Positions 36,111-41,956 of a DNA stretch of 64,000 bases are shown here, piece after piece. This stretch comes from Weissella confusa (GTDB taxonomy: Bacteria > Bacillota > Bacilli > Lactobacillales > Lactobacillaceae), in assembly GCA_041871065.1 (NCBI GenBank), contig CP168942.1, positions 870,501 through 934,500 of the forward strand, read 5' to 3'. How positions within the stretch are numbered: the first letter of the stretch is position 1; each line of letters starts with the position of its first letter. The notes under the pieces were generated by a model, which saw only the letters and a program-made list of their open reading frames with translations, was not told the DNA's origin and made no database searches. Made by a program: the position numbers and the translations under genes.

Positions 36111-38417
36111 ATGATTTCACCACGCTATCAATGGGATTTTCCAGCTGTAGCCAATGAAGGGGCTGCCAAAGAAATCGCTGAGACATTCGGTGTTTCAGAT
36201 TTGGTCGCTAAAATCTTAGTTAATCGAGGGTATGACACTGTTGAAAGTGCCAATGCCTTTTTGCGTCCGGGGATGGATGCGTTGTATGATCCGTTTTTGT
36301 TGCATGACATGGATGTGGCGATTGACCGCATTATGACAGCTATCGACAACGGTGAAAAGATTGTGGTCTACGGTGACTATGACGTCGATGGAATTACCAG
36401 TACGGCGATTATGACGTGGGCGCTTGAATTGATGGGCGCTGATGTGAGTTACTATGTGCCGAACCGCTTTAATGATGGCTATGGCCCTAACATGGCGCAA
36501 TATCAACGTTTGGCTAGCGAAGGCATGCAGTTGTTGATTACGGTCGATAACGGTGTTTCTGGTCGTGAAGAAGTGAATTGGTTGATGGCCAATGGCGTTG
36601 ATGTTATTGTGACCGACCACCACGAGTTACCAGAACAATTACCTGATGCGGTTGCAGTTGTGCACCCACGTCACCCGGAAGGTGATTACCCATTCGGCGG
36701 ACTTTCTGGTGCCGGTGTCGCCTTTAAGGTGGCATCAGCGTTGCTAGAAGAACCAGCCGATGAGGTGATGGATTTAGCGGCCTTAGGTGCAGTGGCTGAC
36801 GTCATGGAGTTGGTCGATGAAAATCGTGCGATTGTGGCGATGGGCTTGGCGAACTTGAAAGAAGATCCACGCCCTGGTTTGGCGGCTTTGTTAGAAGTTG
36901 CTGGCACTGCCCAGGCGGATATCGACTCAATGACTATCGGCTTTACGATTGGTCCGCGTTTGAATGCATTGGGACGTATGGCTGATGCAACAGATGGTGT
37001 GCGTCTATTGTTGTCAGATGACCCTGAGGAAGCCAGTGAACTAGCCAAGCGCATTGATAAGTTGAACCGTGAGCGTCAAGACTTGGTGGCATCGATTTCT
37101 GAAGAAGCACTTGCTCAAGCGGCCGAGCTAACAACTGATCCAGTATTGGTGGTTGCCGGTAGTGGCTGGCACGAAGGTGTACTGGGTATTGTTGCTAGTA
37201 AGTTAGTTGAAGCGACGGGTAAGCCGGCGATTGTCTTGAATAACGAAGATGGTCAAATGAAGGGGTCTGGTCGCTCAGTGGCGGCCTTTGATTTGTTCGC
37301 TGCGTTGGACGGGCACCGTGACTTGTTGACTGCGTTTGGTGGTCACGCCAGTGCGGCTGGTATGACGATTCCCACGGCCAACTTGCAAGCGGTACGTGAT
37401 GTTTTGCGCGAAGAGGCAGCCAATCAACATTTGGCGGAAGCTGGTTTGCCAGAAATTCGAATCGCCGCTGAAGTGACAGCCAAGGACTTTAACCGTCAAA
37501 ACTACGAGCAATTGCAGGTGCTGGCACCATTTGGTGAAGGGAATCCTGAGCCATTATTCGCCGTTAATTTGGCAGGTGTCCAGAACGTTAAGACAATGAG
37601 TGAAGGCAAGCACTTGCGCTTTACGGCTGAAACATCTGCCGGTACATTGCCGGTAGTTGCATTTGGTCGTGGGCCGCTTGCTGAAGATCTAGCGGGCCGT
37701 TTTGAGTCAATTCGCATTGTCGGGACGATGAGTGAAAATAGTTTCCGTGGGGATGTGTCATATCAAATGATGCTCACGGATATCGAAGCTAAGGGATCTT
37801 CATTGTTAGATTGGCGTACGACGCGTTTGACGACGCAAACGTTTGCCAACCCAGCCACATATATTTTCTTTAACAAGAAGCATTATGAACAACTAGCGCC
37901 AACAATTAAGGCGCCGGCTGAAGCGTTGTATTGGGAAGATGCCTTTAACCGAACAAGCGTCGGCACAATGGCCTTTGTGGATATCCCTGACGATATGTCA
38001 CAATTGGCCGACTTGCTAAAGTTTGTGCCAGCGGGTCGTTTGGCACCAATCTTTTATGCGAAGACACCGGCATATTTGCAAAAAGTCCCTTCAAAAGCCG
38101 ACTTTGCGAAGGTGTACAAGTTTGCCCGTTCATTCCAAGATATCGCACTGAGAACGCAATATGATGCGGTTTTGGCGCACTTGGGGATGGAACGTTCAAT
38201 GTTAACGTTGATATTACAGGTGTTTTTGGACGCAAAGTTTGTTACAATAGTTGATGGTGTTTTAAATGCCGTACCTGAGCCAGCGCCAATGGCGTTAGAG
38301 GAAACTGCTAGTTATCAGCAATTCCTGGCTCGTCGGCAACTTGAAGAGCAATTGATTTACAGTTCAACTTCTGAATTGGAATCATTGCTCACGAACCTAA
38401 GTAAGCAGGAGAGCTAA
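36111..38417 (+). CDS. recJ: Single-stranded-DNA-specific exonuclease RecJ
   Basis: 768 residues, the long Firmicutes form. The DHH domain has [14 protein letters not shown] and VTDHHELPE; the DHHA1 domain has the [11 protein letters not shown] segment; an OB-like domain and a C-terminal extension typical of Lactobacillales follow. It degrades single-stranded DNA 5' to 3' in mismatch repair and recombination. AGGAGGACC precedes ATG 36111. apt starts 4 bases after the stop, so the two are cotranscribed, the common rnz-recJ-apt order. Confidence 0.96.
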
Positions 38418-38421
38418 GCAG

Positions 38422-38937
38422 ATGTTGGATTTGCATGATTACGTTGCCTCAATCCCTAACTTCCCAGAAGAAGGGGTTACGTTCCGCGACATTACGCCTT
38501 TGTTGGCTGATGGTGCCGCTTATGCGGAAGCAACGCGTCAAATTACTGAATTCGCTAAGGAGCGTGGTGTTAACGTTATTGTTGGCCCAGAATCACGCGG
38601 ATTCTTGGTTGGGGCACCAGTTGCCCACCAAATGGGAATTGGATTGGTTCCAGCCCGTAAGCCAGGCAAGTTGCCTCGCGAAGTTATTAGCCAAAGCTAC
38701 AAGCTAGAATATGGTGAAGCAACTTTGGAACTGCACAAGGACGCTATCAAGCCTGGTGATAAGGTTTTGATTACGGACGACTTGTTGGCCACTGGTGGTA
38801 CGATTGAAGCCACGATTAAGTTGGTTGAAGCCCTTGGTGGTGAAGTCGTTGGTTTGGCTTTCTTGATTGAGCTTAACGCTTTGCACGGTCGTGATCGTCT
38901 TGACGGTTACGAGTTGTTGGCATTGATGAATTACTAA
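38422..38937 (+). CDS. apt: Adenine phosphoribosyltransferase
   Basis: 171 residues, a full-length type I phosphoribosyltransferase. Signatures are [34 protein letters not shown] and the PRPP loop [14 protein letters not shown]. It salvages adenine to AMP. It is the last gene of the rnz-recJ-apt unit and ends at a bidirectional terminator shared with lexA on the opposite strand. Confidence 0.97.
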
Positions 38938-38939
38938 CA

Positions 38940-38988
38940 AAAATAGGACCATCTGTTCAAATTTGAACGGATGGTCCTTATTTTTTAA
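38940..38988. terminator. Bidirectional terminator between apt and lexA
   Basis: A long inverted repeat (AATAGGACCATCTGTTCAAA against TTTGAACGGATGGTCCTTATT, one bulge and one G-T pair) is flanked by A and T runs on both sides, so it can terminate both convergent genes. Confidence 0.88.
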
Positions 38989-39617
38989 TAAATTGAATCG
39001 CGATACAAACCGACAACTTTACCTAGAATAGTGATGTCAGTTGTGATGACCGGTTCGTGGTTATCGTTTTCTGGTTGCAATCGATATTGTGATGCTTCAC
39101 GGAAGAAACGTTTGATTTGCGTTTGCCCGTTATCAGGTTTTGCGACAACAATGTCACCGTTATCCGCATCATTTTGTCGACGCACAATCATATAATCGCC
39201 ATCTAGAATCCCAATGTTAATCATGGCGTTGCCTCGATTGCGAATCATGAACAAATCACCTTCAAAACGAATCAAATCATCTGGTACTGGGAAGTAATCG
39301 ACGATATGGTTATTGAGATGCTCATCAGATGTGATGGGCTCATTCTCATCCATAATGGGCATCATGGTTTTATTTGGTTCGTGTAGTCCAAGTGCCTTGA
39401 TGCCTTCTGGTGTGACGTCGATAGCGCGCGGCTTATCAGGGTCTTTGTGAATGTATCCTTTCTTTTCCAAGCGGCTTAAGTGGCCGTGAACCGTTGAAGA
39501 TGATGAAAGACCAACGCCCTCACCGATTTCACGAACAGTTGGCGGATACCCTTTTTCGAGTTGTTTCTCGTAAACAAAACGGAGGATCGCAATTTGATTA
39601 CTTTCTTTTTCGGCCAT
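38985..39617 (-). CDS. lexA: LexA-family repressor lacking the self-cleavage residues
   Basis: 210 residues. The N-terminal winged helix (about 1-66) is intact, with PPTVREIGEGVGL and SSSTVHGHLSRLEKKGYI close to B. subtilis LexA. The C-terminal S24 domain is recognisable (GILDGDYMIV, NGDIVVA, QIKRFFRE, YRLQPEN). However, the catalytic serine of the GxSM motif is Ala131 (GNAMIN; codon GCC on the minus strand, 39225-39227), and no Ala-Gly bond is present where cleavage normally occurs (residues 86-98, PIMDENEPITSD). Lys169 is retained. The protein should bind DNA and dimerise but not cleave itself. AGGAGG lies before the ATG. I found no clear LexA box upstream. DUF896 and yneF genes nearby match the B. 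subtilis lexA neighbourhood. Confidence 0.9.
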   Translation of the reverse strand: MAEKESNQIAILRFVYEKQLEKGYPPTVREIGEGVGLSSSSTVHGHLSRLEKKGYIHKDPDKPRAIDVTPEGIKALGLHEPNKTMMPIMDENEPITSDEHLNNHIVDYFPVPDDLIRFEGDLFMIRNRGNAMINIGILDGDYMIVRRQNDADNGDIVVAKPDNGQTQIKRFFREASQYRLQPENDNHEPVITTDITILGKVVGLYRDSIY

Positions 39618-39797
39618 AAGCTGAAGGACCTCCTAATTCGAATATATTACTATCTATTTTACTTTTAATTCGGGTGGAAATAAAGTAGGGGCAGGAATGG
39701 AATTGAAGTTTATTTTTAAAAAATCAGGATTTTCGGTAAGGGTTTTTGGTAGAATGAAATGGTTAGTGAAAAATGCAATTAATTCTGAGGCGGGAAA

Positions 39798-41479
39798 ATG
39801 ATAAAAAAGAAAAATGTTGTTTTAAAAATTGTGGTCATATTATTTATTAGCGCTGGTTGGGTAATGGCAAATTCGATTTCTAAAACCGGGGATCCTTTTG
39901 CTGGTATTATGAACAGCGACCTAATTTTTGGTAATGTATTTTTGTTCCTGTTTATGACGATTGTGATATCTGGGATAATCTACGCTTTAGAACAACTATA
40001 TAAAAAGCGATTTACTTATCTTGAAGGTGATTTTCCATGGTGGAAGGTTTGGGCGCTGCTTTTAATTTTTTGGGCGCCATATGTGATGCTGGCATTTCCA
40101 GGAGTGGTTGGTTGGGATGGTGCGGATCAATTAAATGCTTTTTTCCAAGTGGACATGCCTAAACAGGCTATTCACTTTTATGGAACAAATTATAATTTTC
40201 CAAATCAGCAATTCTATTTAACAAATCATCATCCTTTTATGTCTAGCTTATTTTTGGCGACTCTTTTTTCATTAGGAAAAACAGTGTTCCAAAATGCAAA
40301 TGGGGCTATTGCGACCGTGGTGTTAGGTCAATATATTTTGATGAGCTTAAGTATTACGTATTTAATAATGGCTATAAAAAAATGGCAAAAGGCATTTTTG
40401 AGATTGACACTTTTCTTTTTTGCGTTATTTCCCGTATTTCCGTTGGTTGTAGTTAATGTTAATAAGACAGCGCTACTTTTGGCGATTTATGCATTATTTA
40501 TTGGATCATTGCTTCGCGTTATATCAAGTGAAAATAAAAATCATATTGTTTCGTTTACAGCAGCGACAACAATCCTGCTTTTGGTGAGAAACGATACGAT
40601 AATATTATTAATTGTATTGCTGTTAATGGTTCCAATTTTGAAATTGCCCCTAAAAAAATATATCTATCTGCCGCTATCGCGCTTGTTATTTTTATTGGGT
40701 GGAATAAGGTTATGTTACCCGCAGTTAAAGTTCTTCCCACGGAGCCTGTCGAAGCATTGGCAGTTCCAAGTCAGCAAATTGCATATACATTAATTCATAA
40801 TCCGAAGGCATATACTAAGCGGGATCTTACGGTATTGAAAAAAGTAGCGGATCTCGGTGCGATGAAACAAGCATACACCGATGGCGCATATGATCCTGTT
40901 AAGCATACGTTTTATTACTATCCAGATGGATTTTGGCAGAAAGGTAAAAGTTATGAACAGGCTCGGCAATTACTGGAGAATGCGCCTATTGTAAAAAATA
41001 AATCGGAGTACTTTCGAGTATGGTTTAATGGCTTGATAAAATCACCAACCACATATGTACAGGCCTACTTGCTTAACTATTATCATTACTTTTATTTTGG
41101 AGATATGAAAATTAATCTTGATTTGTCTTATCGAGGTGGATTTGAAGATTATGAAAATACTACCTTATTCAAGGGATTAGATTACAGAGATTCGGTAGGT
41201 CGCAAAAATTTGTCAAACTGGTCTGATGTACAACGAACAGTGCCGATTTTGAAGACTATGCTGACAACGGGATTTTGGGGAGTCACTATTTTATTGATGT
41301 TAGTTTTGGCTGTAGAAACGAAAAATAAACGCGCGATACTACTTGCGGCACTTTCGTTAGGTTCTGTCGGTGTTGGAATGTTATCACCGGTAGATGGTTA
41401 TTTGCGTTATGTAATGCCACTTATGGTTTCTGTGCCAATCATTTTGGCGATTTTGTTCCAACACAAGGAAGAATCGTGA
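39798..41479 (+). pseudogene. Large membrane protein (DUF6020-like), frameshifted in a poly-A tract
   Basis: Two overlapping frames, 39798-40793 and 40712-41479, together make one protein of about 560 residues: many membrane helices, an extracellular loop with GWDGADQLNAFF and TNHHPFMSSLF, then a soluble domain and final helices. Such proteins are often annotated DUF6020 and resemble GT-C glycosyltransferases. The break lies at the A7 run 40652-40658, in phase as A_AAA_AAA: a -1 slip there, or one extra A in the DNA, joins the frames without loss. It may be a true mutation, a phase-variable switch, programmed slippage or a sequencing error. The gene is more AT-rich than its neighbours and separates lexA from the DUF896 gene, suggesting acquisition. 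Confidence 0.75.
40652..40658 (+). other. Slippery heptamer A_AAA_AAA at the frameshift
   Basis: Seven A residues, positioned so that the zero-frame codons are CTA AAA AAA TAT. A -1 ribosomal or transcriptional slip continues as ATA TAT CTA TCT GCC into the second frame. Confidence 0.7.
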
Positions 41480-41701
41480 TGTTTTTTAAAAGTGTGAAGG
41501 TAGCTTATTGATTTTTTACTGTTATGCGTTAGCACAATATTTCCTCTATAAGATTGCAAGATGATTAATCTATCGTTGATTTATGTGGTAGATTCGGAGA
41601 GGCGATCCAGAGGGCTGTTAAAATAAGAAACAAAGTAAGACAGGAATGGTTGCGTTTTCGTGTTAAAATAGATGCAAAAGCAGATAAAGGTGGTGAAAAC
41701 C

Positions 41702-41956
41702 ATGGCAGAAACAGAACGTATGATGGCTGTTCGTACCCGCATTAATGAATTGGCAGCCAAGGCGAAGACGCCTGAAGGATTGACTGACGATGAAATCGCA
41801 GAGCGTGCAGAATTGCGTACGGAGTTCTTGGAGAACTTCAAGGCTGCTTTCCGTTCACAAGTTGAAATGTTGCAAGTTTTCGATGAAAACGGTAATGAAG
41901 TTACACCTGAAAAGGTTAAGGACATTCAACGTGATAAGGGATTGCGTGATAACTAG
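41702..41956 (+). CDS. DUF896 family protein (YnzC-like)
   Basis: 84 residues, soluble and helical. RINELAAKAKTPEGLTDDEIAERAELRTEFLENFKAAFRSQVE is the hallmark of DUF896 (PF05979). B. subtilis YnzC, in the lexA-yneA-yneB-ynzC neighbourhood, is the reference; its function is unknown. AAAGGTGG sets ATG 41702 rather than the upstream in-frame codon at 41672. yneF follows 90 bases later, preserving the B. subtilis-like arrangement, although yneA is absent. Confidence 0.9.
   Translation: MAETERMMAVRTRINELAAKAKTPEGLTDDEIAERAELRTEFLENFKAAFRSQVEMLQVFDENGNEVTPEKVKDIQRDKGLRDN

Follow-up and report, generated by a model that had tools for sequence, protein, structure and literature searches.

Autocleavage of LexA is the textbook trigger of the SOS response, and non-cleavable forms are familiar from the laboratory as the lexA3-type and Ser-to-Ala mutants of E. 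coli. The closest precedent for the protein described here is LexA of Synechocystis sp. PCC 6803, in which Ala-Gly has become Gly-Gly and the catalytic serine has become aspartate; the protein is believed to control genes that lie beyond the SOS regulon (PMC3091678, PMC7567884). The first of these papers also records cyanobacteria that have lost lexA and in which the binding sites are degraded (PMC3091678).

We describe a LexA from Weissella that shares with the Synechocystis protein the loss of both Ala-Gly and the catalytic serine. A LexA lacking both is therefore already known, and the Weissella case appears to be new: the literature searched, in which subscription journals are thinly covered and some papers are represented in part, gave no prior account of a non-cleavable LexA in this genus. 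Unlike the cyanobacterium Synechocystis, Weissella is a Firmicute genus affected as a whole; further catalytic residues are drifting, lexA has been lost at least two times, recA and almost every lexA gene have lost their SOS boxes, and RecA is altered too. The targets of the Synechocystis LexA are partly known, whereas the Weissella protein is known from sequence alone. Three Weissella genomes (G002, G014 and G024) resemble the cyanobacteria without lexA, although in Weissella gene loss follows a genus-wide non-cleavable state. The E. coli Ser-to-Ala mutants carry the same nucleophile change as our protein, but they are engineered or selected, single, and set in an intact SOS regulon, whereas in Weissella the change arose naturally and has become fixed. 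LexA of Leuconostoc, Oenococcus and Periweissella belongs to the same family by descent, has the same DNA-binding domain and is about 55-59% identical to the protein studied here among the matches listed, yet it retains Ala-Gly, Ser, Lys and the lexA box. Weissella is widespread in food and among probiotics, and the joint change of switch, operators and partner protein in this genus lets one ask how bacteria live without an inducible SOS response and what the role of an unremovable LexA might be.

The lexA locus of the window

The gene lies in what we call the window, the whole 64-kb stretch of Weissella confusa DNA that was analysed. Its features are as follows.

36111..38417, plus strand: recJ, next neighbour and marker of the conserved lexA locus (TIGR00644, 565 bits)
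38422..38937, plus strand: apt, convergent neighbour (NCBIfam apt models above cut-off)
38985..39617, minus strand: lexA, 210 aa, without self-cleavage residues (TIGR00498, 168 bits; Pfam LexA_DNA_bind and Peptidase_S24)
39012..39314, minus strand: S24/dimerisation domain, residues 102-202 (PF00717, 85.6 bits)
39111..39113, minus strand: codon AAA, Lys169, general base, retained (alignment)
39225..39227, minus strand: codon GCC, Ala131, at the catalytic Ser position (alignment)
39324..39359, minus strand: cleavage region PIMDENEPITSD, residues 87-98, without Ala-Gly (sequence)
39423..39599, minus strand: LexA DNA-binding domain, residues 7-65, retained (PF01726, 69.7 bits)
39618..39747, minus strand: lexA promoter region, 130 bp, where SOS-box scores do not exceed those of shuffles (best -7.1 bits, reached in 70% of shuffles)
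41672..41956, plus strand: ynzC-like DUF896 gene, other flank of the locus, retained where lexA is lost (PF05979, 89.6 bits)

The open reading frame is intact and reads ...RGNAMINIGILDGDYMIV... and ...MMPIMDENEPITSD... within its 210 residues. Three things place the protein in the LexA family by descent: a full-length match to the NCBIfam lexA model TIGR00498 (residues 6-207, against a cut-off of 110.95 bits), the winged-helix domain, and the ynzC locus. Both Pfam domains score above cut-off. No XRE-type helix-turn-helix was matched at E 0.001, the N-terminal domain being LexA_DNA_bind, and the protein does not have the XRE-S24 fusion architecture of HdiR or phage CI. The recognition-helix region, SSSSTVHGHL, closely resembles that of relatives. 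An AlphaFold model (mean pLDDT 84.7, pTM 0.59) has N-terminal helices and a beta-rich C-terminal part.

A preliminary description of this DNA had claimed that the catalytic serine is replaced by alanine and that Ala-Gly is missing from the cleavage region, with the DNA-binding domain and the lysine kept. The intact frame, the alignment and the domain matches bear it out on each point. Ala-Gly, the Ser-Lys dyad and SOS boxes at lexA and recA, the marks of a self-cleaving SOS repressor, are all missing from the window genome.

The surroundings are those of the conserved lexA locus, with the DUF896 gene on the divergent side of lexA and one inserted gene between them. In G004, G008 and G011 lexA directly adjoins ynzC, a neighbourhood that we take to be the B. 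subtilis arrangement. The inserted gene, a DUF6020 gene at 39798-41479, is split over two frames (39798-40793 and 40712-41479) and is absent from the same-species genome G006. Near its ynzC-side end lies an apparent diverged second copy of the sequence upstream of lexA.

Distribution of the altered LexA

LexA was found in 25 of 28 Weissella genomes. With columns aligned to B. subtilis LexA, Ala-Gly is absent from all 25, and Ser and Lys never occur together. The nucleophile column holds T in seven, A in six, N in six, S in four, H in one and D in one; the lysine column holds Y in ten, K in six, A in three, G in three, and L, D and S in one each. No LexA match was found in G002, G014 and G024. 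There the order of recJ, apt, ynzC and acyltransferase matches is retained, and lexA is gone from between apt and ynzC. On the RecA tree G014 pairs with the lexA-bearing G004, and G002 and G024 pair elsewhere, so at least two of the losses are independent.

Among named relatives, Ala-Gly, Ser and Lys are all present in 80 of 80 (these being the top 80 among 587 records, from which some very close to the window are possibly omitted), which places the Weissella state far from chance. The three features also occur together in 108 of 121 LexA proteins (P0001 plus 120 listed matches out of 7918); 12 of the 13 exceptions are of the window type or about 70% relatives of it, one of them named W. cibaria, and the thirteenth is a metagenome protein, P0060. 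A second set comprised 22 LexA loci, of which 21 were translated and 20 are intact, the exception being G184. Further relatives are intact in 20 of 20 cases, and so are the LexAs examined from Periweissella, Oenococcus and Leuconostoc. A LexA tree was used for close groupings alone, since its deep branches are unreliable among such divergent proteins (B. subtilis falls inside Periweissella).

Some cases outside the genus deserve mention of their own. G184, from another genus of the family, has a separate degenerate and shortened LexA (L129), with a one-mismatch box at its lexA promoter and none at recA. The metagenome LexA P0060, 55% identical to that of the window, lacks Ala-Gly and carries EDM in the nucleophile position and VRRF in the lysine position. 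In G044, G054 and G060, from three other genera, LexA was not found, the recA box is absent and RecA is otherwise normal; these are apparent further losses of LexA control in the family, in genomes of which G044 is 87% and G054 91% complete. G060 has a second RecA match (503 bits, C1:535685-536635) besides that at C1:1340706.

SOS boxes and RecA

Promoters were scanned within 130 bp upstream, at a threshold of 10 bits, with a 14-bp SOS-box matrix built from 47 boxes of relatives; since the matrix was trained on boxes of the relatives, there is some circularity in their scores, which the Weissella scores do not share. At recA, none of the 23 Weissella genomes examined has a box above 10 bits within 130 bp (best 6.7). 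The box is present in 31 of 36 relatives, 30 of them above 10 bits in the matrix scan; the 31st is G124, in which the recA start codon had been placed too far upstream. The five relatives without it are G062, whose LexA is intact, and G184, G044, G054 and G060, whose LexA is degenerate or was not found. A 300-bp scan of recA gave a one-mismatch site at -135 in G014, which has no LexA, and a two-mismatch site in G018. The lexA promoter has a box above threshold in one of 24 Weissella genomes (G021, 12.1 bits; G006 left out), and a box with at most one mismatch in 37 of 42 relatives (17/22 and 20/20). Upstream of Y-family polymerase genes, a box with up to two mismatches was found at 0 of 24 genes in 12 Weissella genomes and at five of six genes in three relatives; another three matches in Weissella and one among relatives lie outside these counts.

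The window genome itself follows this pattern. Its best recA promoter box scores -11.0 bits, not above shuffles; no residual operator at lexA rises above shuffles in the window's clade, and box counts inside the window are at or below chance. Counted genome-wide, a perfect canonical box occurs once in the window genome and not at all in G006, G005, G007, G010 and G003. Such CGAACNNNNGTTCG counts are uninformative alone: counts of the reversed control differ greatly, perfect boxes are few in most genomes of the family, and the promoter scans were taken instead. One study used an E. coli matrix to infer that LexA controls the promoter of a W. cibaria dextransucrase (PMC9498152). As that promoter illustrates, caution is needed: LexA or SOS control in Weissella should not be inferred from an E. 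coli motif.

RecA has changed as well. Between positions 229 and 239 (numbered by E. coli RecA) there are 17 residues in 18 Weissella genomes, 18 in two and 20 in three, which accounts for all 23, compared with 11 in E. coli and in 36 of 36 relatives; the insertion is thus 6, 7 or 9 residues long. Of the columns that at least 94% of relatives conserve, twelve differ in 23 of 23 Weissella (90, 150, 156, 159, 163, 170, 195, 224, 232, 261, 264 and 302), and four other clades have 0-3 fixed changes each. Six of the twelve fall inside 150-165 or 224-243, to which 20 of the 188 conserved columns belong (hypergeometric p 0.0004); these two regions were picked after consulting PMC3834820. In that paper, presumed LexA contacts in RecA include the L1 loop (157-165), E156, G165, G229 and R243, and E156 is among the residues whose mutation alters LexA binding and not recombination (PMC3834820). 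Position 229 is variable also among relatives with intact LexA. Five of the twelve changes (150, 159, 170, 224 and 302) are to the residue of E. coli, whose RecA does cleave LexA; without them, three of seven lie within the contact stretches (p 0.03).

RecA was compared with its neighbour PgsA in 42 genomes: at a PgsA identity of 0.65-0.70, mean RecA identity is 0.67 in 208 Weissella-other pairs and 0.79 in 25 other-other pairs. On this comparison RecA evolution sped up, relative to PgsA, on the Weissella stem. RecA of the window genome is 95-96% identical to W. cibaria RecA, and the best matches outside the genus, at 65-72% identity, are from Fructobacillus, Oenococcus, Periweissella and other Lactobacillaceae. 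The long Weissella stem on the RecA tree had raised the possibility of a foreign RecA acquired by horizontal replacement. We rejected it, since the nearest outsiders are Lactobacillaceae, and regard recA as native but fast-evolving. Weissella is natural material for separating the RecA residues that serve LexA from those required for recombination.

Fate of LexA-RecA control and competing explanations

Our reading, to which we give a probability of roughly 0.8, is that LexA-RecA control of the SOS response was dismantled on the Weissella stem, leaving LexA of the window's clade as a putative damage-insensitive, dimeric DNA-binding regulator and LexA elsewhere in the genus drifting or deleted. 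On that stem, LexA would have lost its scissile bond and catalytic dyad, SOS boxes would have disappeared from recA, nearly all lexA genes and the examined Y-family polymerase genes, and RecA would have gained its insertion together with fixed changes over-represented in reported LexA-contact stretches. DNA damage would then no longer remove LexA, RecA filaments would no longer act as its co-protease, and recA and the polymerase genes would stand outside LexA control. In the window's clade LexA may act constitutively, or on another signal, at other sites; in the rest of Weissella it would have been left to drift or be deleted. Points against dismantling are the five E. coli-like RecA changes, the G021 lexA box, the G014 recA site, and G062, which has an intact LexA and no recA box. 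The lesion noticed in the preliminary description is real, and its scope was drawn too narrowly, as the state is genus-wide and comes with lost SOS boxes and an altered RecA. Its proposal that SOS is not triggered here by LexA autolysis is very probably right, nucleophile and scissile bond both being gone. A more specific version, which we put forward tentatively and would not yet favor, is that Weissella RecA is a natural separation-of-function RecA that kept recombination and lost its co-protease role for LexA and phage repressors, with a LexA that is signal-independent or differently sensed and that purifying selection strongly maintains in the W. confusa clade.

It is also conceivable, though unlikely, that LexA still governs the damage response and is inactivated in some other way, by another protease, a ligand or phosphorylation, so that SOS sensing has been replaced. 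Consistent with this, purifying selection acts strongly on both LexA domains in the window's clade: three pairs (G000 with G010, G005 and G007; dS 0.64-0.98) have dN/dS values of at most 0.004 for the C-terminal domain and of 0.00-0.03 for the N-terminal domain; the G000-G003 pair is saturated. Among relatives, the C-terminal dS was usable in three pairs, which have dN/dS of 0.00-0.02. A phosphorylation change has also been proposed for the non-cleavable Synechocystis LexA (PMC7567884). However, in the window genome neither recA, lexA nor the polymerase genes examined have a canonical box, so that the usual targets are not obviously bound, and three genomes live without lexA.

Very improbable is the idea that LexA is a functionless relic persisting by chance. 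Wear is visible elsewhere in the genus: beyond the loss from three of 28 genomes, lexA of G026 has an in-frame TGA stop, the C-terminal domain of G016 and G017 is shortened and has strongly diverged between the two (41% identity versus 92% in the N-terminal domain), and in the G012 group C-terminal dN/dS is relaxed to 0.19 and 0.30, with N-terminal values of 0.02 and 0.05. C-terminal dN/dS is not relaxed in G018/G009 (0.06) and G022/G008 (0.07). A relic would not be expected to show the purifying selection on both domains seen in the window's clade, nor an N-terminal domain constrained in every pair with usable dS (dN/dS 0.00-0.14). Strong selection here, mixed selection elsewhere and three losses suggest that LexA is kept in the window's clade, loosened in some others and dispensable in at least three genomes. 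The window LexA combines the loss of Ala-Gly and Ser with a gene kept by selection, as a repurposed, Synechocystis-like LexA would. The preliminary description had spoken of selection for a stable repressor, which agrees with the strong purifying selection in the window's clade and fails for the genus as a whole, with its relaxed, shortened, interrupted and thrice-lost genes.

That a second LexA or an HdiR-type repressor runs the SOS response, the alternative offered in the preliminary description, is close to untenable. Repressors of the phage CI/HdiR type are cut with the help of RecA, and proteins of this kind do occur in relatives: 10 of 28 genomes have additional S24 proteins scoring 39 bits or more, 17 in all, and 15 of the 17 keep Ser and Lys as judged by eye. 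In the window genome (completeness 99.99), however, a search at E up to 1 matched LexA and, as the sole other S24 protein, a signal peptidase, and the paralogue was rejected. The 28 Weissella genomes gave 44 S24 matches, 23 to LexA and 21 below 30 bits; three of the latter were inspected and are signal-peptidase-like, and 18 were judged by their short matched range alone. Odd S24 matches in G021 and G022 were considered as repressors and set aside, as their sequences look like signal peptidases. No phage-type self-cleaving repressor was seen in the 28 genomes. The contrast with relatives (0/28 versus 10/28 genomes; Fisher p 0.0007, uncorrected for kinship) is weakened because in the five Periweissella genomes, whose LexA is intact, S24 repressors above 39 bits are likewise absent. 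Weissella commonly carries prophages: in one study every W. paramesenteroides strain has 2-7 phage sequences (PMC10102382), and one W. confusa has three intact prophage regions (PMC12982343). Among the relatives' repressors, the XRE-S24 protein L130 of G044 has DAM where the nucleophile would stand and VRRF in place of the lysine motif; judging from these residues, it is apparently also unable to cut itself. In the XRE-S24 repressors L335 and L336 (G033 and G072), DGM replaces the Ser motif and TLRH the Lys motif.

Finally, a sequencing error or a strain-level mutation can be dismissed, because the same residues recur in proteins from other sources and NAM stands at the nucleophile in G010, G005 and G007 (LexA 97-99% identical), in G003 (72%) and in G006, a genome of the same species, where the serine that would have spoken for such an error was looked for and NAM was read instead.
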